Assembly (NCBI GenBank): GCA_026988115.1
Contig: JALSLV010000108.1
Location: forward strand, 62,001 to 126,000
DNA length: 64,000 nt
Direction of reading: 5' to 3'
Source of the DNA: Lysobacterales bacterium
Lineage (GTDB): Bacteria > Pseudomonadota > Gammaproteobacteria > Xanthomonadales > Marinicellaceae
Below, in pieces: positions 10,165 to 64,000 of this stretch. The notes under the pieces were generated by a model. That model had not been told where the DNA came from. It made no database searches and worked only from the letters and a program-made list of their open reading frames with translations. The stretch's first letter is position 1. Each line of letters starts with the position of its first letter. The translations under genes and the position numbers were made by a program.

Positions 10165-10245
10165 TGTGTGTTATAAATTCCTAGGGTTAATTATCAGTAT
10201 TGGGCATCATTTTATATTGAATCGGTATAAAAAGTTAGATTTAAT

Positions 10246-10275
10246 TTGTTAAATTAGTGTTAAAAAAGTTATAAT
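10246..10275 (+). promoter_or_regulatory. Candidate promoter for the CTERM-tailed protein
   Basis: TTGTTA (10246-10251) and a perfect TATAAT (10270-10275) are 18 bases apart, about 40 bases before the start at 10317. The 152-base gap is shared with the divergent pump operon, for which I see no equally good promoter. Confidence 0.55.
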
Positions 10276-10316
10276 TAAGGCAATGATTTAATAAATTAAA
10301 TAATGGGAAATAAAAA

Positions 10317-11096: not shown

Positions 11097-11120
11097 TAGA
11101 TTTAACAATTTGAATTTATT

Positions 11121-11151
11121 AAAAGGTGAGCTTTTTAGCTCACCTTTTTTT
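11121..11151 (+). terminator. Strong intrinsic terminator, probably bidirectional
   Basis: A perfect 12-bp stem (11121-11132 with 11137-11148) and TTTT loop are followed by a T-run. It closes the rightward CTERM gene. On the other strand it lies just after the uup stop, followed by TTTT, so it may serve both. Confidence 0.9.
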
Positions 11152-11157
11152 ATGGAT

Positions 11158-13032: not shown

Positions 13033-13141
13033 AATATTTATTGCTTGTGTTTTGTGCAGAAGTGTACAGTCGACTTATTCAACATGCAACAAGGCTTAAT
13101 AAATCAACAAAAATAGATGCCTTTATTCAGGCTCCAATTTT

Positions 13142-14149
13142 TTAACAATTCATTAATGCCTTAGCTGTGTCCAACATTCTATTTGAAAAGCCCCATTCAT
13201 TGTCATACCATGAAACAACTTTGACTAAGTTCCCGTTGGTAACCAGTGTTAATCCTGCATCAAAAGTTGATGATTTAGCATTGTGATTGAAATCAATGGA
13301 AACCAATGGATCATCATTATAGCCAAGTACCCCTTTCATGCCTTTTGACGCTTCTTTCATAATCGCATTGACCTCTTCAACGGTTGTAGGTCGAGAGGCT
13401 TGAAACACTAAATCAACAACTGAGACATTAATCGTTGGTACGCGCATTGCATAGCCATCAAGTTTGCCATTTAATTCAGGAAGAACCAAACCAACCGCCT
13501 TTGCAGCCCCCGTACTTGTGGGTATCTGACTCATTGTGGCTGAACGTGCGCGGCGCAAATCTTTATGTGGTGTATCGGACAATACTTGATCATTAGTGTA
13601 AGCATGAATGGTCGTCATTAAACCACTTTCTATACCAATCGAATCGTATAAAGGTTTTACCAGAGGAGCTAAACAATTGGTTGTACAAGAAGCATTAGAA
13701 ATAATCTGACAATCTGATGTTAGTACATCATCATTAACTCCATAAACGATTGTGGCATCCATTTGTCCACTACCAGGAGCTGAAATAATGACTTTCTTTG
13801 CCCCTGCTTCAATATGCTTTGATGCCGCTTCTCTGCTGCGAAATAAACCCGTACATTCCATGACAACATCGATATTTAATTCTTTCCACGGTAAATCTTT
13901 TGGGTTAGGTATGGAAAAATGTTTGATAAAGTCACCATTGACAGAAAACCCCCCTTCAGCCATTTCAACATCTTCTTTAAAGTATCCATGAACGGTGTCA
14001 AACTTAGTCAAATGCACCGAAGTTTTTAAATCAGCCAAATCATTGATTGCAACTATTTTAAATTTATTTTGAGCGTTTAATTCATACAATGCTCGAACGA
14101 TATTTCGACCAATTCGGCCATAACCATTTATTGCTATATTTATTGTCAT
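13142..14149 (-). CDS. gap: Glyceraldehyde-3-phosphate dehydrogenase, type I
   Basis: The enzyme catalyses reversible oxidative phosphorylation of glyceraldehyde-3-phosphate in glycolysis and gluconeogenesis. It has 335 aa. The Rossmann motif is NGYGRIGRN (8-16), and Asp37 in AINDLAD favours NAD over NADP. The catalytic Cys155 is in [13 protein letters not shown] and His182 is in [10 protein letters not shown]. The region [16 protein letters not shown] separates it from erythrose-4-phosphate dehydrogenase (Epd) and resembles the GapA of xanthomonads and pseudomonads. No pgk, tkt or fba lies beside it. It has its own promoter within an inverted repeat (see those entries). Confidence 0.96.
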
Positions 14150-32221: not shown

Positions 32222-33412
32222 TTATTTAAAAATCTTAGCAACAACACCTGCACCAACTGTGCGTCCGCCTTCACGAATAGCAAATCTCAAACCTTCTTCC
32301 ATCGCAATTGGATTGATTAAGGTAACTGTCATTTTTACGTTATCGCCAGGCATTACCATTTCAACACCTTCTGGTAACTCACAAGCTCCAGTGATGTCAG
32401 TTGTACGGAAGTAAAACTGTGGTCTATAGCCTTTGAAAAATGGAGTGTGACGTCCGCCTTCATCTTTTGACAAGATGTAAACTTCTGCTTCAAACTCTGT
32501 ATGTGGAGTAATTGATCCAGGATGTGCCAATACTTGACCACGTTCAACGTCATCACGCTTAGTTCCACGTAATAATACACCTACGTTTTCACCTGCACGA
32601 CCTTCGTCTAGTAATTTACGGAACATTTCAACACCCGTACATACGGTTTTTTGTGTGTCTCTGATTCCGATGATTTCTAATTCTTCACCCACTTTAACAA
32701 CACCACGCTCTACACGTCCAGTTACAACTGTTCCACGACCTGAAATTGAGAACACGTCTTCAATAGGCAATAAGAAAGGTTGATCAACATCGCGTTTAGG
32801 CTCTGGAATATAATCATCCAATACGTCTAGCAATTTCTTTATTGATGGAACACCAATATCACTTTCGTCACCTTCTAGTGCTTTAAGTGCAGAACCCATA
32901 ACCATAGGAGTATCATCTCCAGGGAAATCATAATCGCTTAATAATTCACGAATTTCCATTTCTACCAATTCCAACAACTCTTCGTCATCAACTTGGTCAC
33001 ATTTATTCATGTATACAACGATATAAGGTACGCCAACTTGACGACCCAATAAAATGTGCTCGCGTGTTTGTGGCATTGGACCATCAGCAGCTGATACGAC
33101 TAAGATAGCACCATCCATTTGTGCTGCACCTGTAATCATGTTCTTAACATAGTCAGCATGGCCTGGACAATCTACGTGTGCGTAGTGACGACCTTCTGTT
33201 TCATATTCTACGTGTGCTGTAGCAATTGTAATACCACGCTCGCGCTCTTCTGGTGCATTATCAATTTGATCATAATCTTTGAATTCACCACCTTGTAATT
33301 CTGCTGCCACTTTTGTAAGGGCGGCTGTCAATGTAGTTTTACCGTGATCAACGTGACCAATTGTTCCCACATTTACATGCGGTTTGTTGCGTTCAAATTT
33401 TTCTTTAGACAT
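32222..33412 (-). CDS. tuf: Elongation factor Tu, copy 1
   Basis: EF-Tu is the GTPase that delivers aminoacyl-tRNA to the ribosome. It has 396 aa. G motifs: GHVDHGKTT (19-27), DCPGHADY (about 81) and NKCD (about 136), with the effector region [13 protein letters not shown]. The protein is identical to the second copy at 48668-49858 and the DNA appears identical throughout. Similarity stops one base before the ATG and continues about 15 bases past the stop with one mismatch. This copy is in the str group after fusA and has a weaker AGAG ribosome-binding site than copy 2. Confidence 0.99.
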
Positions 33413-48503: not shown

Positions 48504-48579
48504 TGGCAGGCCAGGAGGGAATCGAACCCACAACCTACGGTTTTGGAGACCGCCACTCTGCCAATTGAGCTACTGGCCT
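48504..48579 (-). tRNA. trnW: tRNA-Trp (CCA)
   Basis: A 76-base cloverleaf with acceptor stem AGGCCAG/CTGGCCT, D-stem GCTC/GAGT (last pair a G-T wobble), anticodon loop TCTCCAAAA with anticodon CCA, T-loop GGTTCGATTC, and an encoded 3' CCA. It lies between tuf copy 2 and secE, as in many gammaproteobacteria. Confidence 0.97.
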
Positions 48580-48591
48580 ACTTCATTAAAA

Positions 48592-48607
48592 TAGGATTAA
48601 AATCCTA
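48592..48607 (-). terminator. Weak terminator-like hairpin before tRNA-Trp
   Basis: A 6-bp AT-rich stem (TAGGAT/ATCCTA) is followed by TTTT on the minus strand. It is too weak to be a convincing terminator and may only mark tRNA processing. Confidence 0.25.
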
Positions 48608-48616
48608 GAGCGACCA

Positions 48617-48642
48617 AAGCCAACAATCAAAATTGCTGGCTT
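48617..48642 (-). promoter_or_regulatory. Hairpin between tuf copy 2 and tRNA-Trp
   Basis: An 11-bp stem with one wobble (48617-48627 with 48632-48642) and four-base loop lies 25 bases after the tuf stop. Its TTTTG loop region and the GTCGCT just after it resemble the rplL-rpoB hairpin at 45059-45093. A processing site is likely. Confidence 0.55.
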
Positions 48643-48667
48643 AGTCTTAACTTTCTATTGCTAATCT

Positions 48668-49858
48668 TTATTTAAAAATCTTAGCAACAACACCTGCACC
48701 AACTGTGCGTCCGCCTTCACGAATAGCAAATCTCAAACCTTCTTCCATCGCAATTGGATTGATTAAGGTAACTGTCATTTTTACGTTATCGCCAGGCATT
48801 ACCATTTCAACACCTTCTGGTAACTCACAAGCTCCAGTGATGTCAGTTGTACGGAAGTAAAACTGTGGTCTATAGCCTTTGAAAAATGGAGTGTGACGTC
48901 CGCCTTCATCTTTTGACAAGATGTAAACTTCTGCTTCAAACTCTGTATGTGGAGTAATTGATCCAGGATGTGCCAATACTTGACCACGTTCAACGTCATC
49001 ACGCTTAGTTCCACGTAATAATACACCTACGTTTTCACCTGCACGACCTTCGTCTAGTAATTTACGGAACATTTCAACACCCGTACATACGGTTTTTTGT
49101 GTGTCTCTGATTCCGATGATTTCTAATTCTTCACCCACTTTAACAACACCACGCTCTACACGTCCAGTTACAACTGTTCCACGACCTGAAATTGAGAACA
49201 CGTCTTCAATAGGCAATAAGAAAGGTTGATCAACATCGCGTTTAGGCTCTGGAATATAATCATCCAATACGTCTAGCAATTTCTTTATTGATGGAACACC
49301 AATATCACTTTCGTCACCTTCTAGTGCTTTAAGTGCAGAACCCATAACCATAGGAGTATCATCTCCAGGGAAATCATAATCGCTTAATAATTCACGAATT
49401 TCCATTTCTACCAATTCCAACAACTCTTCGTCATCAACTTGGTCACATTTATTCATGTATACAACGATATAAGGTACGCCAACTTGACGACCCAATAAAA
49501 TGTGCTCGCGTGTTTGTGGCATTGGACCATCAGCAGCTGATACGACTAAGATAGCACCATCCATTTGTGCTGCACCTGTAATCATGTTCTTAACATAGTC
49601 AGCATGGCCTGGACAATCTACGTGTGCGTAGTGACGACCTTCTGTTTCATATTCTACGTGTGCTGTAGCAATTGTAATACCACGCTCGCGCTCTTCTGGT
49701 GCATTATCAATTTGATCATAATCTTTGAATTCACCACCTTGTAATTCTGCTGCCACTTTTGTAAGGGCGGCTGTCAATGTAGTTTTACCGTGATCAACGT
49801 GACCAATTGTTCCCACATTTACATGCGGTTTGTTGCGTTCAAATTTTTCTTTAGACAT
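48668..49858 (-). CDS. tuf: Elongation factor Tu, copy 2
   Basis: This is the second EF-Tu gene, 396 aa, identical in protein to copy 1 at 32222-33412. It occupies the tufB position between tRNA-Thr and tRNA-Trp. Nothing upstream of the ATG resembles copy 1: the 5' leader here carries TGGAG at good spacing. Identity confined to the coding region is the mark of ongoing gene conversion. Transcription is expected from the promoter before tRNA-Tyr, with tRNAs cut from the same RNA. Confidence 0.99.
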
Positions 49859-49957
49859 TGCTGTACTCCACTATGTTTAAATGTTTCGTTTTAATGCATC
49901 TACCTTTAAAACCTTAAATAATTAATTTTTGATTGAGCAAGAGCTTAACCTATTACA

Positions 49958-50033
49958 TGGTGCCCATAACTGGAGTCGAACCAGTGACCTCTTCCCTACC
50001 AAGAAAGTGCTCTACCGACTGAGCTATATGGGC
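49958..50033 (-). tRNA. trnT: tRNA-Thr (GGT)
   Basis: A 76-base cloverleaf: acceptor GCCCATA/TATGGGC, D-stem GCTC/GAGC, anticodon loop TTGGTAG (anticodon GGT, reading ACC and ACU), T-loop GGTTCGACTCC, and encoded CCA. It sits directly upstream of tuf as thrT does in E. coli. Confidence 0.97.
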
Positions 50034-50047
50034 GCGCCTAATAGCTT

Positions 50048-50121
50048 TGGAGCGGGTGAAGGGAATCGAACCCTCGTAGTCAGATTGGAAATCTGAAGTT
50101 CTACCATTAAACTACACCCGC
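50048..50121 (-). tRNA. trnG: tRNA-Gly (TCC)
   Basis: A 74-base cloverleaf: acceptor GCGGGTG/CACCCGC, anticodon stem TCAGA/TCTGA with loop TTTCCAA (anticodon TCC), T-loop GGTTCGATTCC, and encoded CCA. It matches glyT of the E. coli tufB operon. Confidence 0.97.
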
Positions 50122-50182
50122 ACAGGCACTTTTTACACAAAACAAAAACAGGCTACCTAATGACAACCTGTTATTTCGAATA

Positions 50183-50267
50183 TGGTGGAGGGAGGAGGAT
50201 TCGAACCTCCGAAGTTAGAAACAGCAGATTTACAGTCTGCCCTCGTTGGCCGCTTGAGTATCCCTCC
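50183..50267 (-). tRNA. trnY: tRNA-Tyr (GTA)
   Basis: An 85-base class II tRNA with a long variable arm. Acceptor GGAGGGA/TCCCTCC, anticodon stem GCAGA/TCTGC with loop CTGTAAA (anticodon GTA), T-loop GGTTCGAATCC, and encoded CCA. It is first of the tRNA-tuf operon. Confidence 0.97.
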
Positions 50268-51063: not shown

Positions 51064-53256
51064 TCAAACCTGTTTAGCGCTTTTTTTTTGATCCTCATGG
51101 TAGCCATAGTGACCATAATAACTTCCTTCATACTTATAATATCGCCCATATTTCGCTTTACTGGTTCTCAACCTATTCATGGCAATGCCAATTATTTTTG
51201 CTGATGAACGCCTCAACCGAGTGATTGCACTTTCCACCAATTGCGATGGAGTGGAATCATTTTTTAATACAAATAATACACCATCGACTTTTTGAGATAA
51301 AACCAAAGCATCACTAACCGCCATTACTGGCGCACAATCAATAACAACAAACTTGTATTTACTTTTAAGTTTAGTTAGCAAAATATCAAACTTTTCTGAA
51401 GACAGTAATTCCAAAGGGTTGGGGGGAATCATTCCGGATGCCAGAGTATGTAATTTACCAGACCCCTTTTCCACAGTTATGCATTCAGCAAAACTCGCTT
51501 CTCCTGACAACAAGGTCGTCAGTCCCGATAGTTTTGTCATGCCCATATTTCTTTTTACCATTGGTCGCCTTAAATCCGCTTCAACTAATATTGTTTCACC
51601 TAAATGTGATAACGAGTGCGCCAAGTTCATTGCCACCGTTGTCTTGCCTTCACTCGGAACTGTTGAAGTCACCAATATTGATTTGTTTTCAACATCTGGA
51701 AGCGATAATAACACTCCTGTCCTGAGGGTTCGAATAGACTCAGAGAAAGCAGACTTTGTATGCTCAACAAATTGCATCGCCGGAGAGCTGCCACTGTCTT
51801 TTTCATCAATATCAGGCAACATACCAATAACTGGTAAATTAATTTTACTTTCAACCTCTCTAGAAGATTTGAAAGTATTATCAAAATGCTCCATTAAAAA
51901 AGACACTGCAATACCCAACAACAAACCAACAACGACACCAATAACAATCATAATTTTTTTATTGGGCTTATAAGGATTGCTTGGGACAGTAGCCTTATTT
52001 ATCACGCGTGCATTAATTGTTTGAACGGATGAGGTTTTGACCGCATCTGTTTCTTTTGATTGTTTTAAAAAAGCATCGTATATTTGCTTATTGTAATTGT
52101 AGTCGCGCTTTAAAGAATTGTACTCAAATGCCTGTTCATTATTTGAAGAAATTTCTCCTTTAATTGATTTAACGCCACTTTCTTCATGTATTATTTCTTG
52201 TGATATTGATTCATAGTCTGCAACCACCAAATCAGCAGCGACACGCAAAACGCCATCATACTCAAGTTGAGTTAAACGCCTTAATTCAACAGCCTTTTTC
52301 ATCTTTGGGTGCTTTGGACCATAAACCAAAGCCAAAGAAGATACTTCGGATTGCACATCAGTCAACTCATTTTTTAATCGCACAACCTCTGGTTTGTCCA
52401 ACAGCGCAGGAATTCTAGCCAACTGCTTAGTGTCATTACCAATGCTTTTAATTCTTCTATAAACCGCTTCTAAACTTAATTTTTTTCTTTTTAACTCACC
52501 AATTCTTGTGCTTAGTTGAGTCAATTCCTGAACGGCTAACTCGTCACCACCTTCTGGCATAAACATCTGATACTTTCTTTGGTATTGCTTTAATTTTTGC
52601 TCAGACTCTTGCACTTTCTTTTTCAATTCTGGCAATTGCTTGGATATGTTTTCGCCCGTGCGTTGCTTGGCATTAATATCAACCTCAATCACTTCTTCGA
52701 TATAAGACTCTGCCAATGCATTGGCCTTTAGTGTTGCCAAATACGGATCATAATCGTCAAAAGCTATGTAAAAAACGCCACTGCCCTTTGCTTGAGAAAC
52801 CGACATGGTTGATTGCACATTTTCAATGGCGAGATTAAATAATTCATCCGATGATTTATTAGCGTAGTTTTCTTCTACAGACCCTGGCAATAATTTCTCG
52901 TACCACCGAAGCTCTTTTGGTTTTGGAATAAACTTCTCAACACCTATGCGCTGAACAACCTTTTGGGCAACAGGTGTGGACTTAAGCACATGAATTTGAT
53001 TGGGGTAAAATTCCCAGTTCATTCCCATCATGCCAAACAATTGATCCAAAGAACCCATTCGACTCGGTCGCTCAATCATTAAACTTGTTGAAGCTTGATA
53101 GACAGGCTTTGCCTTGATTGCCAAATAGAATGAGAATAAAGAAGTGATTAAAACAAATGTTAGTATAATTAACCAATGACTCTTAATTAACTCAATGAAA
53201 TCCTTAATATCAAATGCATTGGATTCTTTGACTGCATTTTCTGGTTGCGAATTCAT
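51064..53256 (-). CDS. Polysaccharide co-polymerase with tyrosine autokinase (Wzc/VpsO type)
   Basis: This inner-membrane regulator of polysaccharide chain length and export has 730 aa (E. coli Wzc 720). The Wzz domain lies between helix 1 (about 30-50) and helix 2 (about 434-455), with a periplasmic coiled-coil part in between. The cytosolic BY-kinase has Walker A STVPSEGKTT (531-540), Walker A' ILVEADLRRP (556-565) and Walker B VVIDCAP (Asp640). The C-terminal tail (703-719) has eight tyrosines, the autophosphorylation cluster. It starts one base after the exporter stop. No matching phosphatase (Wzb) is in view. Confidence 0.94.
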   Translation of the reverse strand: MNSQPENAVKESNAFDIKDFIELIKSHWLIILTFVLITSLFSFYLAIKAKPVYQASTSLMIERPSRMGSLDQLFGMMGMNWEFYPNQIHVLKSTPVAQKVVQRIGVEKFIPKPKELRWYEKLLPGSVEENYANKSSDELFNLAIENVQSTMSVSQAKGSGVFYIAFDDYDPYLATLKANALAESYIEEVIEVDINAKQRTGENISKQLPELKKKVQESEQKLKQYQRKYQMFMPEGGDELAVQELTQLSTRIGELKRKKLSLEAVYRRIKSIGNDTKQLARIPALLDKPEVVRLKNELTDVQSEVSSLALVYGPKHPKMKKAVELRRLTQLEYDGVLRVAADLVVADYESISQEIIHEESGVKSIKGEISSNNEQAFEYNSLKRDYNYNKQIYDAFLKQSKETDAVKTSSVQTINARVINKATVPSNPYKPNKKIMIVIGVVVGLLLGIAVSFLMEHFDNTFKSSREVESKINLPVIGMLPDIDEKDSGSSPAMQFVEHTKSAFSESIRTLRTGVLLSLPDVENKSILVTSTVPSEGKTTVAMNLAHSLSHLGETILVEADLRRPMVKRNMGMTKLSGLTTLLSGEASFAECITVEKGSGKLHTLASGMIPPNPLELLSSEKFDILLTKLKSKYKFVVIDCAPVMAVSDALVLSQKVDGVLFVLKNDSTPSQLVESAITRLRRSSAKIIGIAMNRLRTSKAKYGRYYKYEGSYYGHYGYHEDQKKSAKQV

Positions 53257-53766
53257 TTAAAAGAAACTTTCTTTGATTAAGATTACATCGCCAGAAAGAA
53301 TACTGGCATCCATATCTACTTTTACCTCTTTGGAAGTTGCAGAATTAGCATGAGTGAGGTATATCTTTTTCTTGCTTGCTCTTTCAGTTAAGCCACCTGC
53401 CTTTGCAATTGCTCTTCTGACCGTCATGCCTATTTCATAAGGGTAAGAACCAGGAGAGCGAACCTCTCCCTGAATGTAATAAGGCTTGTATTGTTTAATG
53501 GCAACAGTCACTTGCGGATTGACAAAATAGCCATCTTTGAGCATTGAAACAACCTTTTGTTTAATTGAATCAACCGTTTCTTCTTTGACTTGCAACTTAC
53601 CAATAAATGGATATTCGATATACCCTTTTGAGTCAACCGTTAAATCAAGCGCCAGCTCTGGCTCTCCATAAACCTCAACATGCAACACGTCGCCTGCACC
53701 AATCGCATAAGAATATGCAAGGTTTGTAAAAATCAACATGAGTAGAGCCAATAAAACCAAACGCAT
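53257..53766 (-). CDS. Polysaccharide export protein (Wza/VpsN family, short form)
   Basis: The protein has 169 aa from the ATG at 53766; an in-frame GTG lies three codons upstream. A signal peptide (about 1-20) is followed by the Poly_export domain, starting YAIGAGDVLHVEVYGEPEL, and one SLBB-like beta-grasp domain (about 85-150, YYIQGEVRSPGSYPYEIGMTVRRAI). It is half the length of E. coli Wza: no lipoprotein cysteine and no C-terminal outer-membrane helix. It probably works with the separate barrel protein encoded just upstream, which would supply the outer-membrane part. Confidence 0.88.
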   Translation of the reverse strand: MRLVLLALLMLIFTNLAYSYAIGAGDVLHVEVYGEPELALDLTVDSKGYIEYPFIGKLQVKEETVDSIKQKVVSMLKDGYFVNPQVTVAIKQYKPYYIQGEVRSPGSYPYEIGMTVRRAIAKAGGLTERASKKKIYLTHANSATSKEVKVDMDASILSGDVILIKESFF

Positions 53767-53776
53767 AACAGTCACT

Positions 53777-54955
53777 TTATTTTGAGAGTTCTAAAGTAAA
53801 CAGCAAAGAATTGTCTTTGTACTCAAATTCATTAATGCTCGAATTTCGACTTGCATGCCGATAACCTAGACCAGAAACCAACCAATCACTAAACTGGTAT
53901 TTGGCTGAAACGCCGTAAAAATTCAAGTCATCACTTCTTAAGCTGCCTTTATAGGTCTCATCAGAAATGCCAACATTTGCAGTCGTACTAAAACGATCTC
54001 TCCAAAAATGCGTCCAACCCAAATCCGCTGTATTGCGCACAACATAAGAGCCATTACCGTTTGTCTCATCCGTTTCACGAGATAATGACAAATCAAAAAT
54101 AGAATAACTTCTTAGCGACCAAGTCAGACCCGCTTCAATAGCCAAACCATTAAAATCATCGTGTTGCGGCTCATCAAAGTCTTTAGTTAAGTATCCAACC
54201 AAAGCTCTTGCACTTGTTTTACCAGTTGCTTGCCATTGAGCACCAAACATATAACGTGTTTCTTTATTATCTAAACTGGCAACATCATAATCTATATTGG
54301 TTCTTTTAAACTGAGCAAGAAGACTTGTTTTGGGTGAAACTCGGTGCGAGTAAGTGACTCCAAAATACCGAGCCTGCCTGTTTCTTGTTGCTGTGAACTG
54401 CTCGTTATTGTCGTATTGCCTATCAACATATCCCAGGTCGAAATCCAAAGCTCCTTTTGCACCAACCCCACCATAATGCCACTTTCCACCAACACCAAAA
54501 GAATGCCACTGATCGGGATCTAAATTTAAATCAATTAAACCACCTTGCTGGTTTCCTGTTCCAATTCTATCTGACCCATCAAGGTACTCAACAGAAGCCT
54601 CTAACTGAGAGCGATTTGATACAAAATACCCCAGTTTGAACAACAATTGCTGCCTATCAAAATTATACCGAGAATCCGAATTAAATGAGGTTTTACTGTA
54701 ATCGTACTGACCCAGAAAGCTAAGTTTTTCTCCTTCTGCCTCAACCCTTACCCCTGGGGAAAAAACAAAGAAATTTGAGCTAATTGCCCGACTATCATCA
54801 AACAAATAAGAAACATTGTCATCGTAGCCATAGCTCAAGCCAATGGTTGGAAAAACATTAAAACTTCCCAATTGCAACCCATCTTGTTGTGCTTGAGCAT
54901 ACTTCCCAAAACATGCCACTACCACAACTGTTATTATCTTCAATACTGTCTTCAT
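53777..54955 (-). CDS. Outer-membrane beta-barrel protein of the EPS locus (VpsM/EpsL-like)
   Basis: The protein has 392 aa with a signal peptide (about 1-22, ending AQA). The mature part is built of alternating-hydrophobicity strands rich in Tyr, Asp, Arg and Ser (SYGYDDNVSYLF, YDYSKTSFNSDSRYNF and others), consistent with about 16 strands. It ends FTLELSK rather than in the usual terminal aromatic. Its position before a short Wza-type exporter suggests the outer-membrane pore for the polysaccharide. A candidate promoter lies upstream. Confidence 0.75.
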   Translation of the reverse strand: MKTVLKIITVVVVACFGKYAQAQQDGLQLGSFNVFPTIGLSYGYDDNVSYLFDDSRAISSNFFVFSPGVRVEAEGEKLSFLGQYDYSKTSFNSDSRYNFDRQQLLFKLGYFVSNRSQLEASVEYLDGSDRIGTGNQQGGLIDLNLDPDQWHSFGVGGKWHYGGVGAKGALDFDLGYVDRQYDNNEQFTATRNRQARYFGVTYSHRVSPKTSLLAQFKRTNIDYDVASLDNKETRYMFGAQWQATGKTSARALVGYLTKDFDEPQHDDFNGLAIEAGLTWSLRSYSIFDLSLSRETDETNGNGSYVVRNTADLGWTHFWRDRFSTTANVGISDETYKGSLRSDDLNFYGVSAKYQFSDWLVSGLGYRHASRNSSINEFEYKDNSLLFTLELSK

Positions 54956-55055: not shown

Positions 55056-56504
55056 TTAGCTTTGGCTAAGTGGTTTTTGTGATTTTTTAACTTTTAAAGT
55101 CACTAATTTGCCGTAAACCAGTGAAATTGCTACGATTATTGTCACTACATTCGCAGGAATCCTAGCGTTAAAATCGAATGTTCCATGCAAAAGCAGGTAT
55201 AAAATTGCAGATAATATCGAAATTGTCAACAATTGATAAAACTGGCTTTTTATTCTTAATGCAAAAATAAACAGGCGATAAAAGAAAATAACGACTAAAG
55301 TAGCAAGAATTAAAGAGAATAATCCAAACTCAACAATAAACTCAATATAATCATTATGAGCGTGATCAAAATAAGCCGTCTGCTCCAGCATTCGGTGATT
55401 GACAAAGAACACCTGATAAGCACCAGGACCCACTCCTGAAAACCAATATTTGGGCATATGAGTGATGGCTTGCTCAACAGCCAACAAACGCCCTTGCACC
55501 GAATCCATCAAAAACGCTTGGCTATCATCAGAATTTTGGCCCAATGTTTGCCAATAATAATTTACATCATCTGAAACAAAAACCAAAACCACCAACCCCA
55601 TGATGAAAACCATAAACAGTTTCTTAATTCCCCTTTTTTTATTTTTCATTGAATACAACAACAAAGAATAATTAAACACTAAAGCCAACAAAAGCGATGC
55701 CAAGCCAGCGCGTGAGTGTGTATTCCAAACACCCACCACAATTAAAAACAGGGCAAAATCTAAAAAACGCAAGGGATGACCAATAAAACGAATAAACCTT
55801 TCTTTTAATCCAATCCCCGAATACCTCACCACTTTTCTCGATAAAACAAACCGCAGCCCCAAGCCCAACAGAAAACTCAAAGACAAAAAAGCAACCAAAT
55901 GATTTTTATTAATAAAAGTCCCTGAGGCATTAAAAACTGAAACAGAAGTGACTTGAACCAAGGTTCCTGTTTGACCAATAGAGACGAGATACATGCCATA
56001 TACCGCTTCAAAAACACCCAAAAGCAGTATCAAAAACAATACAATGGTAATCCTTTTTCGTGAATTAATTAAAACAATACCAAGAATAAATACAATGGCG
56101 TAATAGCTGCTTAACAATAACATTTTATAACTGGCATAAACATCTAAAGACAGGTAGCCATAAGACAAACCAAGGTCAGCATAAGCCTGTGCTACATTTG
56201 GTGTCATTAACCTTAAAAGCGGCAGCGGCAAAGGAATCAAATAAAGTGCAATAACACACAACCACAAAGCAATTAACTTCAATTCCGAACGCATTTTTTT
56301 GAGCCGACCCCAACTAAAATAACACGAATGAAAAACTTGCGAACAAAGCAACATAAACACCAAAATAAGCGTGGAAAAAGCCGCTTCTAATGACCATGCC
56401 CAAATGCGATTAGAACCTAGCGGAAAAGGATTAACAACAATAAGCAAACAAAACAAAACAAAAAACACTCTTTGTTTTAGGGGTTGATAAGCACGCGAGT
56501 TCAT
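55056..56504 (-). CDS. O-antigen polymerase/ligase family membrane protein (Wzy_C)
   Basis: This is a multi-pass inner-membrane protein joining or polymerising lipid-linked sugar repeats on the periplasmic side. I start it at the ATG at 56504 (482 aa), which overlaps the WecA-type stop as ATGA; the longer frame would overlap that gene by 97 bases. About 11 hydrophobic helices are seen. The large periplasmic loop carries the family motif SGVGPGAYQ followed by AHNDYIEFIVEFGL, with the conserved His. In a cluster with a WecA-type starter it is most likely the Wzy polymerase. No Wzx flippase is visible in the window. Confidence 0.85.
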   Translation of the reverse strand: MNSRAYQPLKQRVFFVLFCLLIVVNPFPLGSNRIWAWSLEAAFSTLILVFMLLCSQVFHSCYFSWGRLKKMRSELKLIALWLCVIALYLIPLPLPLLRLMTPNVAQAYADLGLSYGYLSLDVYASYKMLLLSSYYAIVFILGIVLINSRKRITIVLFLILLLGVFEAVYGMYLVSIGQTGTLVQVTSVSVFNASGTFINKNHLVAFLSLSFLLGLGLRFVLSRKVVRYSGIGLKERFIRFIGHPLRFLDFALFLIVVGVWNTHSRAGLASLLLALVFNYSLLLYSMKNKKRGIKKLFMVFIMGLVVLVFVSDDVNYYWQTLGQNSDDSQAFLMDSVQGRLLAVEQAITHMPKYWFSGVGPGAYQVFFVNHRMLEQTAYFDHAHNDYIEFIVEFGLFSLILATLVVIFFYRLFIFALRIKSQFYQLLTISILSAILYLLLHGTFDFNARIPANVVTIIVAISLVYGKLVTLKVKKSQKPLSQS

Positions 56505-57517
56505 GACTGAGGAATTTTCCTCCACGCTTTTTTCAAGACCAAGTAATAAATAATCGAGAACAACACAAAAAGATAAAATTGAATATATTCTTGCCACCGA
56601 TTAATAATAAAAACAGCAAAGACTATCATTAATGCATGCATAGACAAAATCAATGCTAGAGTCTTATTTTGCGACAATCCTTTGGACATAAAAAAATGAT
56701 GCAAGTGTGTTTTATCTGGCATAAAAGGCGAAACGCCTCGGATAAAACGCCGCACCATCACAAAAATAGTATCATAGATGGGCAAAGCCACAAGGTACAA
56801 TGCTGTTACGGGTTTTATCAACCCAACAGGAGCTTGACTAAAATACACCAACAACCACGCCAATAAGAAACCCAAAAACATACTGCCATTGTCGCCTAAA
56901 AATAATTTATACGAATGTGATTTATTAAAAAGCACAAAAATGACGACCGCAATTAACAGCAAAAACAACCAATCACTCAAACCAGAACCATAAGCAAGCC
57001 AAGCGAGCATTAAGACAGGCAAAACAAAAGTCATCGCAGCCAAGCCATCAATTCCATCGGACATATTAAGGGCATTTATCACTCCAACGACACCAAAGAC
57101 AGTAATGGGAATCGCCAATAGACCTAAATCCATATGCCATGAAGGCATTAACAAATAACCAAAAGAGAACAATTGAACTTTTGTCATAAAGACGATAAAC
57201 AAACTGGCTGCAATTTGCACCACAAAACGAATAAAAGCGGATAAATCAAACAGGTCATCTAAAAAACCAACACAAGCAACCACACAGGCAGACAAATACA
57301 AATACAAAGCAAACTCACCCACACCGATAAGCAGAGCCAAAGCCACTCCTGACGAAATAACTAAGGCAACACCGCCGACTAGAGGAACTGGATTTTGGTG
57401 AATCTTACGTTTATTGGGCTGATCGACCAGATTAAATTTCAACGCCAACTTCCTTAAACCAATAATAAGCACAGGAGTTAGTAAACTAATAATTAACGCA
57501 TTCTCAACCATACTCAC
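56501..57517 (-). CDS. WecA/TagO-type undecaprenyl-phosphate sugar-phosphate transferase
   Basis: It starts repeat-unit synthesis by moving a HexNAc-1-phosphate from a UDP-sugar to undecaprenyl phosphate. The 338-aa protein has about 11 membrane helices. Family motifs: the substrate-binding FLDDLFD (about 84), the catalytic NALNMSDGIDGLAA (about 148-161), FLGDNGSMFLGF, and the cytosolic His loop PDKTHLHHFF. It begins directly after the gmd stop and overlaps the next gene. It could also serve the organism's O-antigen, but its position argues for the EPS. Confidence 0.93.
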   Translation of the reverse strand: MSMVENALIISLLTPVLIIGLRKLALKFNLVDQPNKRKIHQNPVPLVGGVALVISSGVALALLIGVGEFALYLYLSACVVACVGFLDDLFDLSAFIRFVVQIAASLFIVFMTKVQLFSFGYLLMPSWHMDLGLLAIPITVFGVVGVINALNMSDGIDGLAAMTFVLPVLMLAWLAYGSGLSDWLFLLLIAVVIFVLFNKSHSYKLFLGDNGSMFLGFLLAWLLVYFSQAPVGLIKPVTALYLVALPIYDTIFVMVRRFIRGVSPFMPDKTHLHHFFMSKGLSQNKTLALILSMHALMIVFAVFIINRWQEYIQFYLFVLFSIIYYLVLKKAWRKIPQS

Positions 57518-58573
57518 TTAACGCTTAAAATCATTTTCCATCATATCGGCGACCAATTGCTCAAAAGAAGTCGCAGGAGTCCAACCGAGTTTATCTTTTG
57601 CTTTTTGTGGGTTACCTAATAACGACTCCACCTCTGCTGGTCGATAAAATTCAGGCGAAACCGCAACCACCTTATCGCCAACCTTAGCCGCAATGGCAAC
57701 AGAGCCAATCTGTTCAATGGTGGCGTATTCTGATTCTCCAGTACCATGCCAAGCTAAAGTTACTTCAACATGTTTAGCAGCGGCATTGACAAAATCACGA
57801 ACACTAAATTGTTGACCCGTAGCAATCACAAAATCATCGGGCTTGTCCTGTTGCAACATCATCCACTGCATCATGACGTAATCACGGGCATGACCCCAAT
57901 CGCGCAATGCATCTAAGTTACCCAAATACAAACAATTTTGTTCGCCCAATAAAACACGAGATAATTCGATAGTAATCTTACGCGTAACGAAAGTTTCGCC
58001 GCGTCTTGGACTCTCATGGTTAAACAAAATGCCGCTACAGGCATACATACCATAAGATTCACGGTAATTAATAACAATCCAATGCGCATACAATTTAGCC
58101 ACGCCATAAGGAGAACGCGGATAAAAAGGAGTTTTTTCCGTTTGAGGCACTTCTTGCACCTCACCAAACAACTCCGAAGTCGAGGCTTGGTAAAAACGTG
58201 TTTTGTCAACCAAACCATTAATCCGAATCGCCTCAAGTAAGCGAACCGTACCCAACGCATCGGTATTCGCCGTGTATTCTGGTGCATCAAAAGAAACCGC
58301 CACATGCGATTGAGCTGCCAAGTTATAAACCTCATCGGGTTTGACCTGAGCTACAATAGCATTGAGAGAAAGGGAATCGGTTAAATCGCCATAATGCAGG
58401 AAGATATTTTTGCCGCTGTTTTCACCCGCATCCAGCAAGTGTTCAATTCGCCCAGTATTGGCAACAGAGGCTCGGCGAATAATTCCATGGACTTCATAGC
58501 CTTTTTGCAGTAATAATTCTGCCAAATAAGAGCCGTCCTGACCTGTAATTCCTGTAATGATTGCTTTTTTCAT
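57518..58573 (-). CDS. gmd: GDP-mannose 4,6-dehydratase
   Basis: It turns GDP-D-mannose into GDP-4-keto-6-deoxymannose, the precursor of fucose, rhamnose, colitose or perosamine. The 351-aa SDR protein has nucleotide motif [16 protein letters not shown] (7-22), the catalytic residues Thr132, Glu134, Tyr156 and Lys160 (YGVAKLY), and the ETFVTRKIT tetramer/GDP segment. No GDP-fucose synthase, Rmd reductase or aminotransferase is adjacent, so the final sugar is unknown. It looks somewhat GC-richer than its upstream neighbours. It has its own candidate promoter. Confidence 0.96.
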
Positions 58574-59848: not shown

Positions 59849-60685
59849 TCATAGCATTGAAAAACCATATCGTTTAATTTCTTCTTGTTTAAGTAACTGT
59901 TTAAATTGAGTCGAAATCAACACATCGTATTCTATCTGACTAATGGAACTTATACGAGTAAGATTTTTTTCTTCATCCCTCGCATTTGAGATCGGATGTA
60001 CCATTAATTCAGACACCCCTTGTTTCAAGCTTTCAATACAACTTTTATACAAGTCAAATGAAACTTCTCCATTTTTAGGGATAAAGTCAAAAACGCTAGT
60101 TAAATAGTCGTTACTGGATAATTGATTGCTCCATTTCTTTTCATTTCTTGAATTTAACTTTTGTATAATGGCCATCCTTATGTATTTGTTTATGCCACTA
60201 CTCCTAACTCTTCCTTGTTTTAGCACTCTTAAAGGAACGCTATTTTTAACGCAATAAGATGCTAATCTATCAAATATATTGGGCAATACATGTATGTGTT
60301 GGTGAGAATCAATGTGGTCCAAATGCAATCCATACGACATAAACTTCTCAATTTGTGCAAAAAACTCTACCCCAATCTCTTGAGTGGAAATTCTATTTAA
60401 AAAATAACGTTTAATAAATTCTCTTCGAGAATAGAATTTTCCATTTTCATTTATTAAGGATTTAACTTTACAGGCATCAGATATAGGTCTTCCAAGAGTT
60501 ATATTAAAATGCAAACCCACTGGCAATTGAAAATTAACACTCATTCCAACCGCTTCTTCGACACAAGGCATATTAACCATTAGAGTCGCACTATCTATAG
60601 AACCGAACACAAAACAGTCTAAAATAGCCTTATTAACCGCATGACTTATGCCAAAATCATCGGCATTAATAATAAGTTGCTTCAT
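59849..60685 (-). CDS. ChbG/HpnK (YdjC) family carbohydrate deacetylase
   Basis: The protein has 278 aa. The family motifs are NADDFG (7-12) near the N-terminus and LDHIDSHQHIHVLPN (about 124-138), which supply the metal-binding Asp and His residues. The known members ChbG (chito-oligosaccharide) and HpnK (hopanoid) remove N-acetyl groups. Here it probably de-N-acetylates a HexNAc of the repeat unit or its lipid-linked precursor. Its ATG overlaps the ATP-grasp stop (ATGA), so the two are translationally coupled and may act one after the other: free the amine, then acylate it. That order is inference. Confidence 0.85.
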   Translation of the reverse strand: MKQLIINADDFGISHAVNKAILDCFVFGSIDSATLMVNMPCVEEAVGMSVNFQLPVGLHFNITLGRPISDACKVKSLINENGKFYSRREFIKRYFLNRISTQEIGVEFFAQIEKFMSYGLHLDHIDSHQHIHVLPNIFDRLASYCVKNSVPLRVLKQGRVRSSGINKYIRMAIIQKLNSRNEKKWSNQLSSNDYLTSVFDFIPKNGEVSFDLYKSCIESLKQGVSELMVHPISNARDEEKNLTRISSISQIEYDVLISTQFKQLLKQEEIKRYGFSML

Positions 60686-61866
60686 GTCATTCTCAAAATT
60701 CTTTTTATTAGTTTTGTAATATATGTCCTCAATTCTGCAAAAAAAGGCTTAATATCAGCTAAGGTAAACACGGGGTAAGTTCGTTTATAGTTGAACTTTA
60801 AATGAGGTTTAACCTTTGGTTTAGGCAAAACAAAGTTTTTATTTTTAAAATACTTCCATTGCGAAAACAAATCTTTAAGGCCATACCTCCATAACACCTT
60901 CGCTTTATTGTTTTTTATTGGAATATTTTCCAAATTCAACTTTCTACTTATAACTTGAGAAACAATAAGTGCACCTGATGCTGTTGCTACAGAATACCAA
61001 AGAGCTGGACGAGGATTAAATTCAATAACTACCCATTGATTTCGTCTACCACACCACTTAAACTCTCCGCTGCATACGCCTGAATAACCGACTTTTGACA
61101 ATAACTTGGAAGACATATCAACAATGTCTTGATTAAATTCTGTAATAACTAAACTGGCAGAGCCAAATCCAATTGGACTTTGGCGGAGCTTTCGCGCAGT
61201 AAAACAATCAATCAACTGATATTTAGAATCAAAACAACCCACAAACAACATTATATTATCTTCAGAGCCTAAAATTATTTCCTGAGCCAACCAATCTTTC
61301 TGACTGCTCTTATAACGACTAAACCAGTCTAGCCATTGTTCTTTATTTCTGATCACCATCCCTTTCTTGCCAGGAATGTCAGACCTCTTTTGGTGGATTA
61401 TTTTTGGTTTAATAAAAATAGGATAACTTTCTATTACCTCAGATTGTTGACTAAAATCATCTATCGAATAAACTTGTGGTTGCAATAAGTTATTCTCACT
61501 TGCAAGCGAACTAAATGTCTCCTTATCTAATAACTTCAAAGCAATTTGATCTAAATAGCAATCATCAAAAAAACAAAATTGATTTAAAACAGCTGCGTTA
61601 TGACAAACCCATTCAACAAACAAATCAGAACTAGGCATTAAAACAATATTATATCTTCGGCTTACTTGTTCTATTTTTTTTGTCAAGTCACTTAAGTCAG
61701 ATAAAACCCAACTTTCTTTAACAAAACGACTCGTATTTGCACACCCTTTTTCTAAACTAGCAACAACAATTGACGTATCAGGAATCCTATTAAGCTCGCG
61801 CACTATTGCCAAAGCCGTTGCTGAAGAACCGAGTACAAGCACAAGTTTGTCTTTAGTGTTATTCAT
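60682..61866 (-). CDS. ATP-grasp carboxylate-amine ligase-like protein
   Basis: The protein has 394 aa. The N-terminal part (about 8-110) is a Rossmann-like pre-ATP domain. The ATP-grasp core (about 115-310) has FIKPKI, a Gly/Lys loop (GKKGMV), QEIILGSEDN for the adenine hinge and VIEFNPRPALW, whose Glu and Asn bind magnesium. The family makes acyl-phosphate intermediates and couples a carboxylate to an amine or other nucleophile. Relatives (COG3919 type) occur in polysaccharide loci. A basic C-terminal region (about 340-394) may touch the membrane. It overlaps both neighbours by 4 bases. Substrates are unknown. Confidence 0.75.
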   Translation of the reverse strand: MNNTKDKLVLVLGSSATALAIVRELNRIPDTSIVVASLEKGCANTSRFVKESWVLSDLSDLTKKIEQVSRRYNIVLMPSSDLFVEWVCHNAAVLNQFCFFDDCYLDQIALKLLDKETFSSLASENNLLQPQVYSIDDFSQQSEVIESYPIFIKPKIIHQKRSDIPGKKGMVIRNKEQWLDWFSRYKSSQKDWLAQEIILGSEDNIMLFVGCFDSKYQLIDCFTARKLRQSPIGFGSASLVITEFNQDIVDMSSKLLSKVGYSGVCSGEFKWCGRRNQWVVIEFNPRPALWYSVATASGALIVSQVISRKLNLENIPIKNNKAKVLWRYGLKDLFSQWKYFKNKNFVLPKPKVKPHLKFNYKRTYPVFTLADIKPFFAELRTYITKLIKRILRMT

Positions 61867-63155
61867 ATTTTATACTTAATTAATAGTTTATAAAACCACC
61901 CTTTTTTACGGAAGTAAATTCCATAAGAAATAATTGCCAATAAATAGGGTAACGCCTGCATTCTCCACCTAAACAGAGCACCTTTATTTGTCGTTGTCGA
62001 GCCATAAACAACCAATATCCCAAAACCAAACCCCAGCAATGGTAAGGCTAAATTTCTATGCCTTCTCCATATTTCTTTTGCGCCTACAACCAAGTTTGGA
62101 AATAAGTTCATAAAAAGTAAAACTTCAGGTAATGCCATTAGCTGCCTGACACTTCCCAGTGAAGTAATGTCTAAAGATAAGAATGAATAATAAACTGCTA
62201 AACTAAACGATTTTAAATCATTTAACCAGCCTTGTCCCCAAACAGCATCTTCTTCATTTTGAAAAAAACGTCCACTACCATGATCACTTAGCTTAACCCT
62301 TGCATGATTCAAATAATCCAAATCGAAATAAACTGAATCTGCTATTCTATCCATTGCAAAAAAACCAAACCCTGCCAGTTGAGCAATAAAACCCATGATA
62401 AGGATAACAGCAATCCATCTAACAAAAACACCAAGAGTTGACCCTTTTAATGGCACCAAAGAGAGAAAAACAATCATCATGCTAATATACAACATGTACT
62501 CTCTTACACCCAAAAATATCATTAACCCTATTAATATTGAAATAACATATTTAACAGAAAACTTTATTTTCACGCTAACTGTTCCGTAAACAAGAAGAGA
62601 TACGGCTAACCATGAAATTGGGTCTTTGAGCATCAATACAGACCAATAAATAAAGGAGGGAAAAAAAGCCACCATTAAAGTCGTTAAACGCGCGATGCGA
62701 ATATCTGGAAAAACTTTTTTTAAAGTATGAAATACTATTATTGGCATGATACTGGCAACTGTAATATTAAACATCTGCACATAAATGGGATGAGGTCCAA
62801 ACAAATAAAACACCAGTCCATTGAACTGAAACCACGCATTATCTATCCATCTAGGCCAATTGAAATTACCGTTTGCCATTTGATTAGCAACAATTTTACC
62901 AACACGAGTGTAATAAAGAGAATCTGATGACAAACCCAACTTCTCAATTGCTCCCGTCATATTGACAAACAACAACAATGATAGCCTAATAGACCATGAA
63001 GTAAAAAACACCTTTCTTAAAAACAAATGGTGATCTGACTTTCTTATTTCAGGCTCAGCGAAAGGTGCGGTTGAAATTTTATTTCGCCCATTTATAAAAA
63101 TAAAAAAGGCAAAAACAAAGAAACCAATGGAAGCAATCAAAATGGCATACATCAT
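61863..63155 (-). CDS. Multi-pass membrane protein of the EPS locus
   Basis: The protein has 430 aa and about 11 hydrophobic helices. A large hydrophilic loop follows helix 2 (about 75-105, SSDSLYYTRVGK... with acidic and aromatic residues). This layout recalls GT-C type mannosyltransferases (GT39-like) or Wzy-type polymerases, but no defining motif convinces me. If Wzy-like, the locus would have two polymerase/ligase candidates, counting 55056-56504. It overlaps its neighbours by 4 bases on each side (ATGA), so it belongs with the glycosyltransferase and ATP-grasp genes. Confidence 0.6.
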   Translation of the reverse strand: MMYAILIASIGFFVFAFFIFINGRNKISTAPFAEPEIRKSDHHLFLRKVFFTSWSIRLSLLLFVNMTGAIEKLGLSSDSLYYTRVGKIVANQMANGNFNWPRWIDNAWFQFNGLVFYLFGPHPIYVQMFNITVASIMPIIVFHTLKKVFPDIRIARLTTLMVAFFPSFIYWSVLMLKDPISWLAVSLLVYGTVSVKIKFSVKYVISILIGLMIFLGVREYMLYISMMIVFLSLVPLKGSTLGVFVRWIAVILIMGFIAQLAGFGFFAMDRIADSVYFDLDYLNHARVKLSDHGSGRFFQNEEDAVWGQGWLNDLKSFSLAVYYSFLSLDITSLGSVRQLMALPEVLLFMNLFPNLVVGAKEIWRRHRNLALPLLGFGFGILVVYGSTTTNKGALFRWRMQALPYLLAIISYGIYFRKKGWFYKLLIKYKI

Positions 63156-64000
63156 TTGCTTAACCTTTGGACTTTAGTATACACTTTATCATAATGCTGA
63201 ATGCCATGCTTTAACGAAAAATATTTACCTGCCAATGATTGACATAATTTAACTGTTTGCCTTTCTTGACTCAAAGAGATGATATCATCAATTGCGTTAA
63301 CCAATAACTCGGGGGAATAATCATCACACAAAACAGCAACTTCAGCAGATAAAATCTCATCCATATCGCCAACGCCAGAATTACATAAAACAGGCATTCC
63401 ACAAGCCATGTATTCACCAATCTTAGTTGCGCAACTGGCTTTTTTGCTAAAATGAGGCTGAATAAAAGATAGGCCTATTGTGTATTGACCCAATTCTTTA
63501 GGGACTTGCTGGTGATTTAATCTCAAGTGAGAAATTTTGCTTAAGTCTACCTTATTGTTTTGTGCCAACTTTTCAACAAGCTTCTTCTGAGAACGTGAAA
63601 TAAGAATAATTTTATAGTTAGGGTAGTTTCTTTGAACAATTGAGAAAACTTTAAAAATCACATCACCCATGTAACCATCACCTATAGAGCCTAAATAGAC
63701 AAAAGATTTTATTTTATTTTGATGACTCTTAAAAACGGTAGTATCCACACAGGTTGGTATAACTGCAATTGGTATTTTTACGCCATTCTTAAAACAATCA
63801 TTTTTAATAATAGCCACTGCTTTTTGTGTCAATGATACAATTGCTGATGCTTGATTGTAGTTTTTAGCATCGAGTCTTTTGAGAAACTTATACAAAAATG
63901 AGTTTTGCCTAAGCTTGCCTTTGTAAACTTTTTCATCCACCCAGAATCCACGAATATCATAAATATAGGGGATTTTTATTTTATTAGAAACCCAACGTGC
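63152..64000 (-). CDS. Glycosyltransferase (GT4-like), 5' end outside window
   Basis: The frame stays open to base 64000: 20 further codons precede the GTG at 63940 and read IPYIYDIRGFWVDEK, the typical GT-B acceptor-side segment. The true start therefore lies beyond the window. About 282 residues are visible. The C-terminal domain has FVYLGSIGDGYMGDV for the nucleotide-sugar site and TKIGEYMACGMPVLCNSGVGDM, the family's donor-binding motif region. It adds a sugar during EPS repeat synthesis; donor unknown. Its stop overlaps the next gene (ATGA). Confidence 0.82.
   Translation of the reverse strand, partial: ARWVSNKIKIPYIYDIRGFWVDEKVYKGKLRQNSFLYKFLKRLDAKNYNQASAIVSLTQKAVAIIKNDCFKNGVKIPIAVIPTCVDTTVFKSHQNKIKSFVYLGSIGDGYMGDVIFKVFSIVQRNYPNYKIILISRSQKKLVEKLAQNNKVDLSKISHLRLNHQQVPKELGQYTIGLSFIQPHFSKKASCATKIGEYMACGMPVLCNSGVGDMDEILSAEVAVLCDDYSPELLVNAIDDIISLSQERQTVKLCQSLAGKYFSLKHGIQHYDKVYTKVQRLSK

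Follow-up and report, generated by a model that had tools for sequence, protein, structure and literature searches.

Gene Organization of the Locus

The window analysed here, that is, the whole stretch of 64,000 nucleotides, belongs to a genome of 3.5 Mb in 121 contigs. On its minus strand, a gene for an ATP-grasp protein is followed downstream by a gene for a YdjC-type deacetylase, and the stop of the former and the start of the latter share four bases. A preliminary description, made from the sequence alone, had reported both ORFs with this overlap and had placed them in an exopolysaccharide (EPS) locus. The two ORFs are present as described, and the setting was confirmed, since the pair lies in an operon with WecA-like, GMD, GT4, Wzy_C-type, outer-membrane barrel and Wza-/Wzc-like genes. 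The features, all on the minus strand and given from upstream to downstream, are the following:

63152 to 64000, minus strand, running beyond the window end: glycosyltransferase-like gene (GT4_410; 410 aa in locus L003), named from its relative at 9712-10926 of locus L185 (PF13579, PF13439)
61863 to 63155, minus strand: polytopic membrane protein, PMT-like in a relative, probably a polymerase; no Pfam match of its own
60682 to 61866, minus strand: ATP-grasp carboxylate-amine ligase-like protein, a predicted ligase; ORF of 394 aa, predicted fold, conserved residues
60682 to 60685, minus strand: ATGA shared by the ATP-grasp stop and the YdjC start
59849 to 60685, minus strand: YdjC/ChbG-type N-deacetylase; ORF of 278 aa, PF04794 (E = 1.2e-57), predicted fold, conserved residues
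58670 to 59800, minus strand: GT4 glycosyltransferase (PF00534)
57518 to 58573, minus strand: GDP-mannose 4,6-dehydratase, GMD (PF16363, 494.5 bits)
56501 to 57517, minus strand: WecA-like initiating HexNAc-1-P transferase (PF00953; TIGR02380 at 239 bits, below the cut-off of 326)
55056 to 56597, minus strand: Wzy_C/O-antigen-ligase-like membrane protein (PF04932)
53777 to 54955, minus strand: BBP2_2 outer-membrane beta-barrel (PF10082), EpsL-like but below the EpsL cut-off
53257 to 53775, minus strand: Wza/EpsE-like polysaccharide export protein (TIGR03028, below cut-off)
51064 to 53256, minus strand: Wzc-like chain-length/tyrosine autokinase (TIGR01007 at 151 bits, above the cut-off of 108)

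The glycosyltransferase-like gene that runs off the window continues upstream, where two further ones follow. A 4-base overlap also occurs between the start of the ATP-grasp gene and the preceding membrane-protein gene (61863-63155), whose product we regard as a probable polymerase because the same slot is filled by EpsG in genome G065; its relative in locus L073 matches PF02366 with 27.1 bits.

Other traits of the surroundings can be mentioned in passing. The genes at 59849-64000 (YdjC, ATP-grasp, membrane protein and glycosyltransferase) have a GC content of 32-34% versus 38-44% in the other measured genes of the operon, with the Wzy_C gene (36%) as the exception, hinting at a separate acquisition of the module. 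Beyond the window, positions 8628-13633 of locus L003 hold a divergent FdtA-like isomerase, two hexapeptide acyltransferases, a DegT aminotransferase, a Wzx-like flippase and a GT2 gene, a cluster that probably makes a 3-amino-6-deoxy sugar and provides a flippase. The end of the EPS operon adjoins tRNA genes and tuf (window 48504-50267 and 50396 onward), and the same operon likewise ends at an EF-Tu-like ORF in a genome of another genus (G031; locus L127, 16979-19290), suggesting a conserved chromosomal site. The two EF-Tu genes of the window (32222-33412 and 48668-49858) are identical across all 1191 bases.

The YdjC Protein

The product of the downstream gene reaches 196.2 bits with PF04794, over the cut-off of 29.7, and as judged from its sequence the YdjC family assignment is certain. 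Its predicted fold matches K. pneumoniae ChbG (7vi8) and CmCBDA (8jqe), and the likeness extends to the active-site residues. In ChbG these are D10, D11, H61, H125 and H206, as given in PMC9402603, and their equivalents in the window protein are D9, D10, H59 and H128 in the alignment with 7vi8, together with H230 in the alignment with 8jqe only; these five residues are invariant in 8 of 8 aligned rows.

The fold and the top NCBIfam matches, namely the ChbG chitin-disaccharide deacetylase equivalog (NF002559, 147.5 bits) and HpnK (TIGR03473, 136 bits), might be taken to indicate an enzyme of chitobiose utilisation or of hopanoid synthesis that stands here by chance. We consider this very improbable, as both scores lie below the curated cut-offs (227 and 232.6, respectively), the gene is located within the EPS operon, and it gave the sole PF04794 match found in its genome. 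Moreover, a tree separates the nine paired YdjCs from the 14 other YdjCs of the order by one label change, with weak support (63/88). The substrate of ChbG itself is diacetylchitobiose according to the same source (PMC9402603), whereas the window protein stays below the cut-off of that equivalog.

The ATP-Grasp Protein

The upstream partner is harder to recognise. Its best Pfam match, CPSase_L_D2, stops at 17.9 bits (cut-off 19.8), its best NCBIfam score is 29.5 versus a cut-off of 271, so that no curated ATP-grasp family is reached, and a sequence search of the PDB returned a single match at chance level (E 0.73). The predicted structure (mean pLDDT 81) is more telling: in the best VIA-align row it matches the PurK-type chain 10bm_A with a Z of 25.9 and an rmsd of 3.7 over 327 residues, and it matches PylC (4ffr) with a Z of 24.3 and an rmsd of 3.1 over 294, these PurK- and PylC-type matches covering almost the full length of the model. 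Residues K115, K153, E196, E268, E282, N284 and R286 are invariant in 8 of 8 aligned rows, and we take the conserved Lys, Glu and Asn among them (K115, K153, E196, E268, E282 and N284) to be residues of the ATP/Mg site. Membership of the ATP-grasp superfamily, weak from sequence, is thus supported by the predicted fold, a fold that leaves the substrate unspecified. An article of 2009 by Iyer et al. reportedly names amidoligases with ATP-grasp domains in its title. As for an amphipathic C-terminal helix, just 4 of 8 tails are above shuffles at 0.05, for which reason we make no claim of membrane attachment.

Recurrence of the Pair

Close relatives of the ATP-grasp protein were found in 10 genomes from 5 genera and 4 families of one order, the named ones being Lysobacterales MAGs, and in 10/10 a YdjC gene lies directly downstream on the same strand. 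The pairing is therefore more than chance, and the recurrence that the preliminary description had proposed to look for in other EPS loci was borne out. It had also hoped for fused pairs, of which there is none among nine complete pairs; the tenth is incomplete because its contig (G1187) stops 66 model positions into YdjC. Two long frames were considered as candidate fusions and rejected: in the 832-aa frame of G1187 the profile covers residues 445-829 only, the rest being frame upstream of the true start, and the 699-aa frame of L102 is likewise a long frame that precedes the true start.

The close group is narrowly distributed. With a four-row ATP-grasp profile, 37 of 299 genomes of the order showed any match and 8 belonged to the close group; the four profile rows score 680-789 bits, the four held-out members 268-273 and the next best sequence 102. 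Any match was present in 39 of 369 genomes of a class sample, and a match at E 1e-20 in 14 of 398 genomes of a phylum sample, and in these two samples the close group was represented solely by G000 and G043, which both belong to the order. Searches by family found the close ATP-grasp in 4/33 genomes for f1, 4/233 for f12 (two of them new), 1/39 for f8 and 1/43 for f9, and a narrow two-pattern scan of genome contigs gave three loci, which are contigs of three g4 genomes.

The deacetylase follows the same pattern. A YdjC alignment search matched 22 of the same 299 genomes; scores were 386-433 bits in 8 of them and no more than 169 bits in the remaining 14, a gap inflated by the training of the profile on those 8; with a four-row YdjC profile, held-out members score 159-224 bits and the best other YdjC 126. 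Close ATP-grasp and close YdjC occur in the identical 8 genomes of this sample, and the 14 other YdjC-bearing genomes are without the close ATP-grasp. With regard to the junction, the ATGA stop/start overlap is seen in the window, L071, L074, L161 and L162, and a TGATG in L072; a short gap separates the two genes in L128 and L129, and the frames as listed overlap in L127 and L073, where the start position is unsure.

A Possible Other Deacetylase in the YdjC Slot

When 72,556 plasmid records were searched by tblastn, 46 of them matched the ATP-grasp. The best match, on plasmid pDY25-F of the alphaproteobacterium Pacificitalea manganoxidans (locus L185), is full-length (32% identity, 99% covered) and reaches 257 bits against the four-row profile, next to the 260-274 of held-out members. 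A quick tree puts it somewhere within the clade of YdjC-paired proteins (11 rows, SH-aLRT 99), and upstream of it lie matches to the three upstream glycosyltransferases of the window, two of them in swapped order.

The YdjC slot of this plasmid is occupied by a gene of 320 aa that has the ATGA overlap with the ligase and no YdjC match. It gives instead a weak match with PF01522 (NodB-type; 19.7 bits, below the cut-off of 23.1) and one of 15.9 bits with NCBIfam HfsH. Its relatives are 42-47% identical, those with an annotation being labelled polysaccharide deacetylase, and the one from Caballeronia goes over the Pfam cut-off with 24.7 bits; in the Caballeronia and Palleronia loci viewed, no ATP-grasp is annotated. 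Our own NodB profile missed the gene, and hhalign against our NodB alignment gave a probability of 9.8%. From the weak match and the annotated relatives, the 320-aa protein may be a NodB-type deacetylase. Counting this eleventh case by its weak match, a deacetylase adjoins the ligase in 11/11 close cases, with a stop/start overlap in at least 7/11, and all evidence for a change of deacetylase inside the close clade comes from this one plasmid.

A Conserved Glycan-Assembly Module

The pair belongs invariably to a small glycan-assembly module, in which the polymerase slot switches family. This follows from the neighbouring genes, searched for with the proteins of the window as queries: where the contig extends (window included), the upstream glycosyltransferase genes of 368 and 410 aa are found in 8/8 and 9/9 cases, the PMT-like membrane protein occurs in 9 of 10 loci, L071 having an EpsG protein (PF14897) instead, and 6 of 9 assessable loci have the downstream GT4, which is missing from the three g4 loci. 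In three g15 loci, a hexapeptide acyltransferase-like frame is interposed between YdjC and the downstream GT4 or overlies them (L072, 10101-10724; L162, 9861-10610; L074, 9162-10601).

Because the genes travel in this larger glycosyltransferase module, co-occurrence is insufficient to prove that the two enzymes act in sequence on one amine; it could instead reflect a shared glycan. In its plainest form, this would mean that YdjC and ATP-grasp are co-inherited as accessories to a single EPS module, with separate substrates, and the conservation of the upstream glycosyltransferase genes and of the polymerase slot beside the pair speaks for it. Nevertheless, the polymerase slot is variable in family (L071 has EpsG there, and L185 an EpsG gene after the deacetylase-like gene) and the downstream GT4 is missing from the g4 loci, yet the ligase keeps its adjoining deacetylase throughout, in most cases with the overlap. 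We thus deem a mere sharing of neighbourhood quite improbable.

The module also informs about the sugar that is likely to be modified. A WecA-like gene is found in 5 of 9 assessable loci (window, L127, L128, L129 and L073) and is absent from the fetched stretches of L071, L072, L074 and L162. PF02397 initiators are present in 1/10 genomes and absent from the other nine, from which it is likely that a WecA-type HexNAc transferase initiates. Both observations together indicate that the first lipid-linked sugar is probably a HexNAc, a natural substrate for YdjC.

The Wider ATP-Grasp Group

Outside the close group we considered 66 looser ATP-grasp ORFs from 62 loci, a set that excludes the 16 weakest matched genomes (4 of the order sample and 12 of the class sample) and in which some fetched stretches are short contigs (at least 3.4 kb) where a missing neighbour says little. 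YdjC occurs in the fetched stretch of 0/66. In 5 of the 66, the next gene on the same strand codes for a Pfam-confirmed NodB protein, the other 61 being without it. The NodB profile was built from 8 Pfam-confirmed proteins and replaced an earlier motif filter, by which 4 of 62 ATP-grasps had been picked out, for two of these on account of genes that were later confirmed by Pfam (L119, L124). On either strand, the profile matches 7 of 142 next-door slots versus 15 of 609 farther ones, counts that are biased, as the profile seeds were picked for nearness to ATP-grasps, and that we do not use as a test; its silence elsewhere is weak, since it missed both the Pacificitalea and the Methanosarcina deacetylases. 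A Pfam scan of 62 direct neighbours showed no dominating family, with Ldh_2 as the commonest (5/62) and PF01522 not among the 25 families listed.

Among plasmids, two near-identical Methanosarcina loci have an annotated polysaccharide deacetylase next downstream of the ATP-grasp, after a gap of ~0.5 kb; the protein tested scores 23.1 bits with PF01522, equal to the cut-off, and 154.7 bits with the VimE model, below its cut-off of 440. In Priestia, 36 records match the ATP-grasp, 3 of which were viewed, and a PIG-L gene lies two genes upstream of the ATP-grasp in 4/4 viewed plasmids of Priestia and Cytobacillus, out of 37 found. These four plasmids carry operons with the order PIG-L deacetylase, GT4, ATP-grasp and kinase-like gene (L187, 3040-7238; L192, 2843-7077; L197, 3039-7243; L198, 2917-7111). 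The PIG-L protein of L187 is nearest to BshB1 of bacillithiol synthesis (59 bits, below cut-off), and its GT4 has BshA among the lower matches; the operons are a candidate pathway for an amino-sugar metabolite. A single-sequence PIG-L query found no match in 70 genome loci. No deacetylase is annotated in seven other plasmid loci viewed (two of Deinococcus and one each of Azospirillum, Halorussus, Bradyrhizobium, Mesorhizobium and Natrononativus), and in two plasmid loci without annotation no deacetylase was found by profiles that include the NodB one with the misses just given. On the Deinococcus plasmids (L189, 4728-7068; L190, 3008-7155), the related ATP-grasp adjoins an LLM-class flavin oxidoreductase, joined by an amino-acid racemase in D. 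deserti.

In a quickly built tree, 89 ATP-grasps were compared, of which 21 have and 68 lack a deacetylase label; the tree requires five changes of the NodB label, at least four of them forced by starred branches; it came with long-branch warnings, and 3 of 92 rows were left out of it (two for coverage, one for E-value), including the NodB neighbour L148. Taken together, the 61/66 ORFs without a next NodB, the 0/66 with YdjC, the lack of a dominant neighbour family and the seven plasmid loci without deacetylase imply that an ATP-grasp of the wider group needs no deacetylase. The association is thus not general in this group, and yet it seems to have arisen several times with different deacetylase families.

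A Proposed Two-Step N-Acyl Exchange

The reading we favour, with a probability of roughly 0.6, is a two-step N-acyl exchange, in which an N-acetyl group is removed and a carboxylate is then attached to the freed amine at the expense of ATP, probably on a lipid-linked HexNAc. The exchange would take place in the cytoplasm, on an EPS building block, and would precede flipping and polymerisation. YdjC would take the N-acetyl off a HexNAc, most likely on an undecaprenyl-PP-linked oligosaccharide started by the WecA-like enzyme, and the ATP-grasp protein would convert a carboxylate into an acyl phosphate, the acid being probably an amino acid or some other common one, and join it by an amide bond to the amine freed by YdjC. 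No gene for making an unusual carboxylate was recognised in the locus.

The proposal draws on the observed gene overlap, the recurrence, the conserved catalytic residues, the predicted folds and one close relative that overlaps another kind of deacetylase (weak match). We infer which amine is involved, a lipid- rather than nucleotide-linked substrate, the nature of the carboxylate and the order of the steps. Deacetylation followed by ligation was already the idea of the preliminary description; it has gained from the pairing in 10/10 genomes and from the weak NodB-type match in the YdjC slot of Pacificitalea, and, given the absence of fusions and the larger module in which the genes travel, it counts as partly supported.

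On the other hand, the two enzymes might act on separate residues, YdjC leaving a free amine and the ATP-grasp amidating the carboxylate of a sugar acid (uronic or nonulosonic), like the TupA-like domain of Cj1438 in the Campylobacter capsule. That C-terminal amidoligase domain of the C. jejuni HS:2 capsule was shown to form an amide on capsule GlcA, according to the portion of PMC11800379 that deals with it; the parallel with the role proposed for the window protein is amide formation by an ATP-grasp during surface-polysaccharide assembly, and the difference is that an amine is joined to the GlcA carboxylate, with no deacetylase partner mentioned in that portion. The domain is TupA-like, and no TupA family is among the Pfam matches listed for the window protein (E 0.1). 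UDP-sugar dehydrogenase domains in 10/10 genomes make an acid acceptor possible, and the G065 locus contains the gene of a LegC-family aminotransferase (467 bits, above the cut-off of 420); however, the window's own contig has no UDP-sugar dehydrogenase match, and the domain is ~18 kb away from the ATP-grasp in G104 and missing from the fetched stretch of the other eight genomes. Moreover, amidation of a sugar acid leaves the other-kind deacetylase in the YdjC slot of Pacificitalea unexplained. Overall, we find this division of labour unlikely.

Comparison with Known Systems

In the synthesis of mycothiol (MshB/MshC) and bacillithiol (BshB/BshC), a GlcNAc conjugate is deacetylated and an amino acid is then joined to the amine; these systems differ in their PIG-L deacetylases, in their unrelated ligases and in their products, which are small molecules rather than polysaccharides. 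The C7orf58-type fusion of a PC-esterase with an ATP-grasp domain in animals is also distinct, with a TTL-like ATP-grasp and an esterase rather than an N-deacetylase, and is a eukaryotic protein known by prediction only.

For surface polysaccharides, a close parallel is the Wbp/Vim pathway of Porphyromonas gingivalis and Tannerella, for which a removal of the 2-N-acetyl group by VimE and a transfer of Ser or Gly to the freed sugar amine by VimA have been proposed; VimE is termed putative and the VimA transfer presumed in the pages of PMC7468200 that concern them, where amino-acid-modified sugars are also suggested for PEP-CTERM EPS loci. The proposed logic is the same for the window pair, and the families are others (PMC7468200, same pages): VimE is a CE4 esterase and VimA a GNAT/FemAB-like protein, whereas the window encodes PF04794 and an ATP-grasp fold instead of the CE4 deacetylase and FemAB/GNAT-like transferase that characterise the Wbp/Vim pathway. 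The ATP-grasp amino acyl ligase CA_C2189 of Clostridium resembles the window protein in its surface-polysaccharide gene neighbourhood, and for its neighbour it has been mooted that a peptide or glutamine is transferred to an amino sugar (PMC4000134, in its passage on this gene, where no YdjC appears).

Significance

In a literature search, with most subscription journals outside it, no paper was found that names ATP-grasp and YdjC together. The class of chemistry is already known, whereas this pair of enzymes appears undescribed, as does a clade of ligases with a possibly changing deacetylase partner. More tentatively, and with odds that we place a little short of even, the ligases would form an ATP-grasp subfamily dedicated to the re-acylation of deacetylated lipid-linked HexNAc with interchangeable deacetylases (YdjC, and a NodB-type enzyme in Pacificitalea), with distant relatives beside NodB and PIG-L proteins in other phyla, and would constitute an undescribed route to the N-acyl, possibly aminoacyl, amino sugars of surface polysaccharides. 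Such unusual sugars shape the charge and the recognition of surface glycans, and their enzymes often lack assignment. A deacetylase beside an ATP-grasp of this kind is a compact two-gene signature that would serve as a searchable marker, and the pair would be a further enzymatic way to carry out an exchange of the kind proposed for VimE and VimA.
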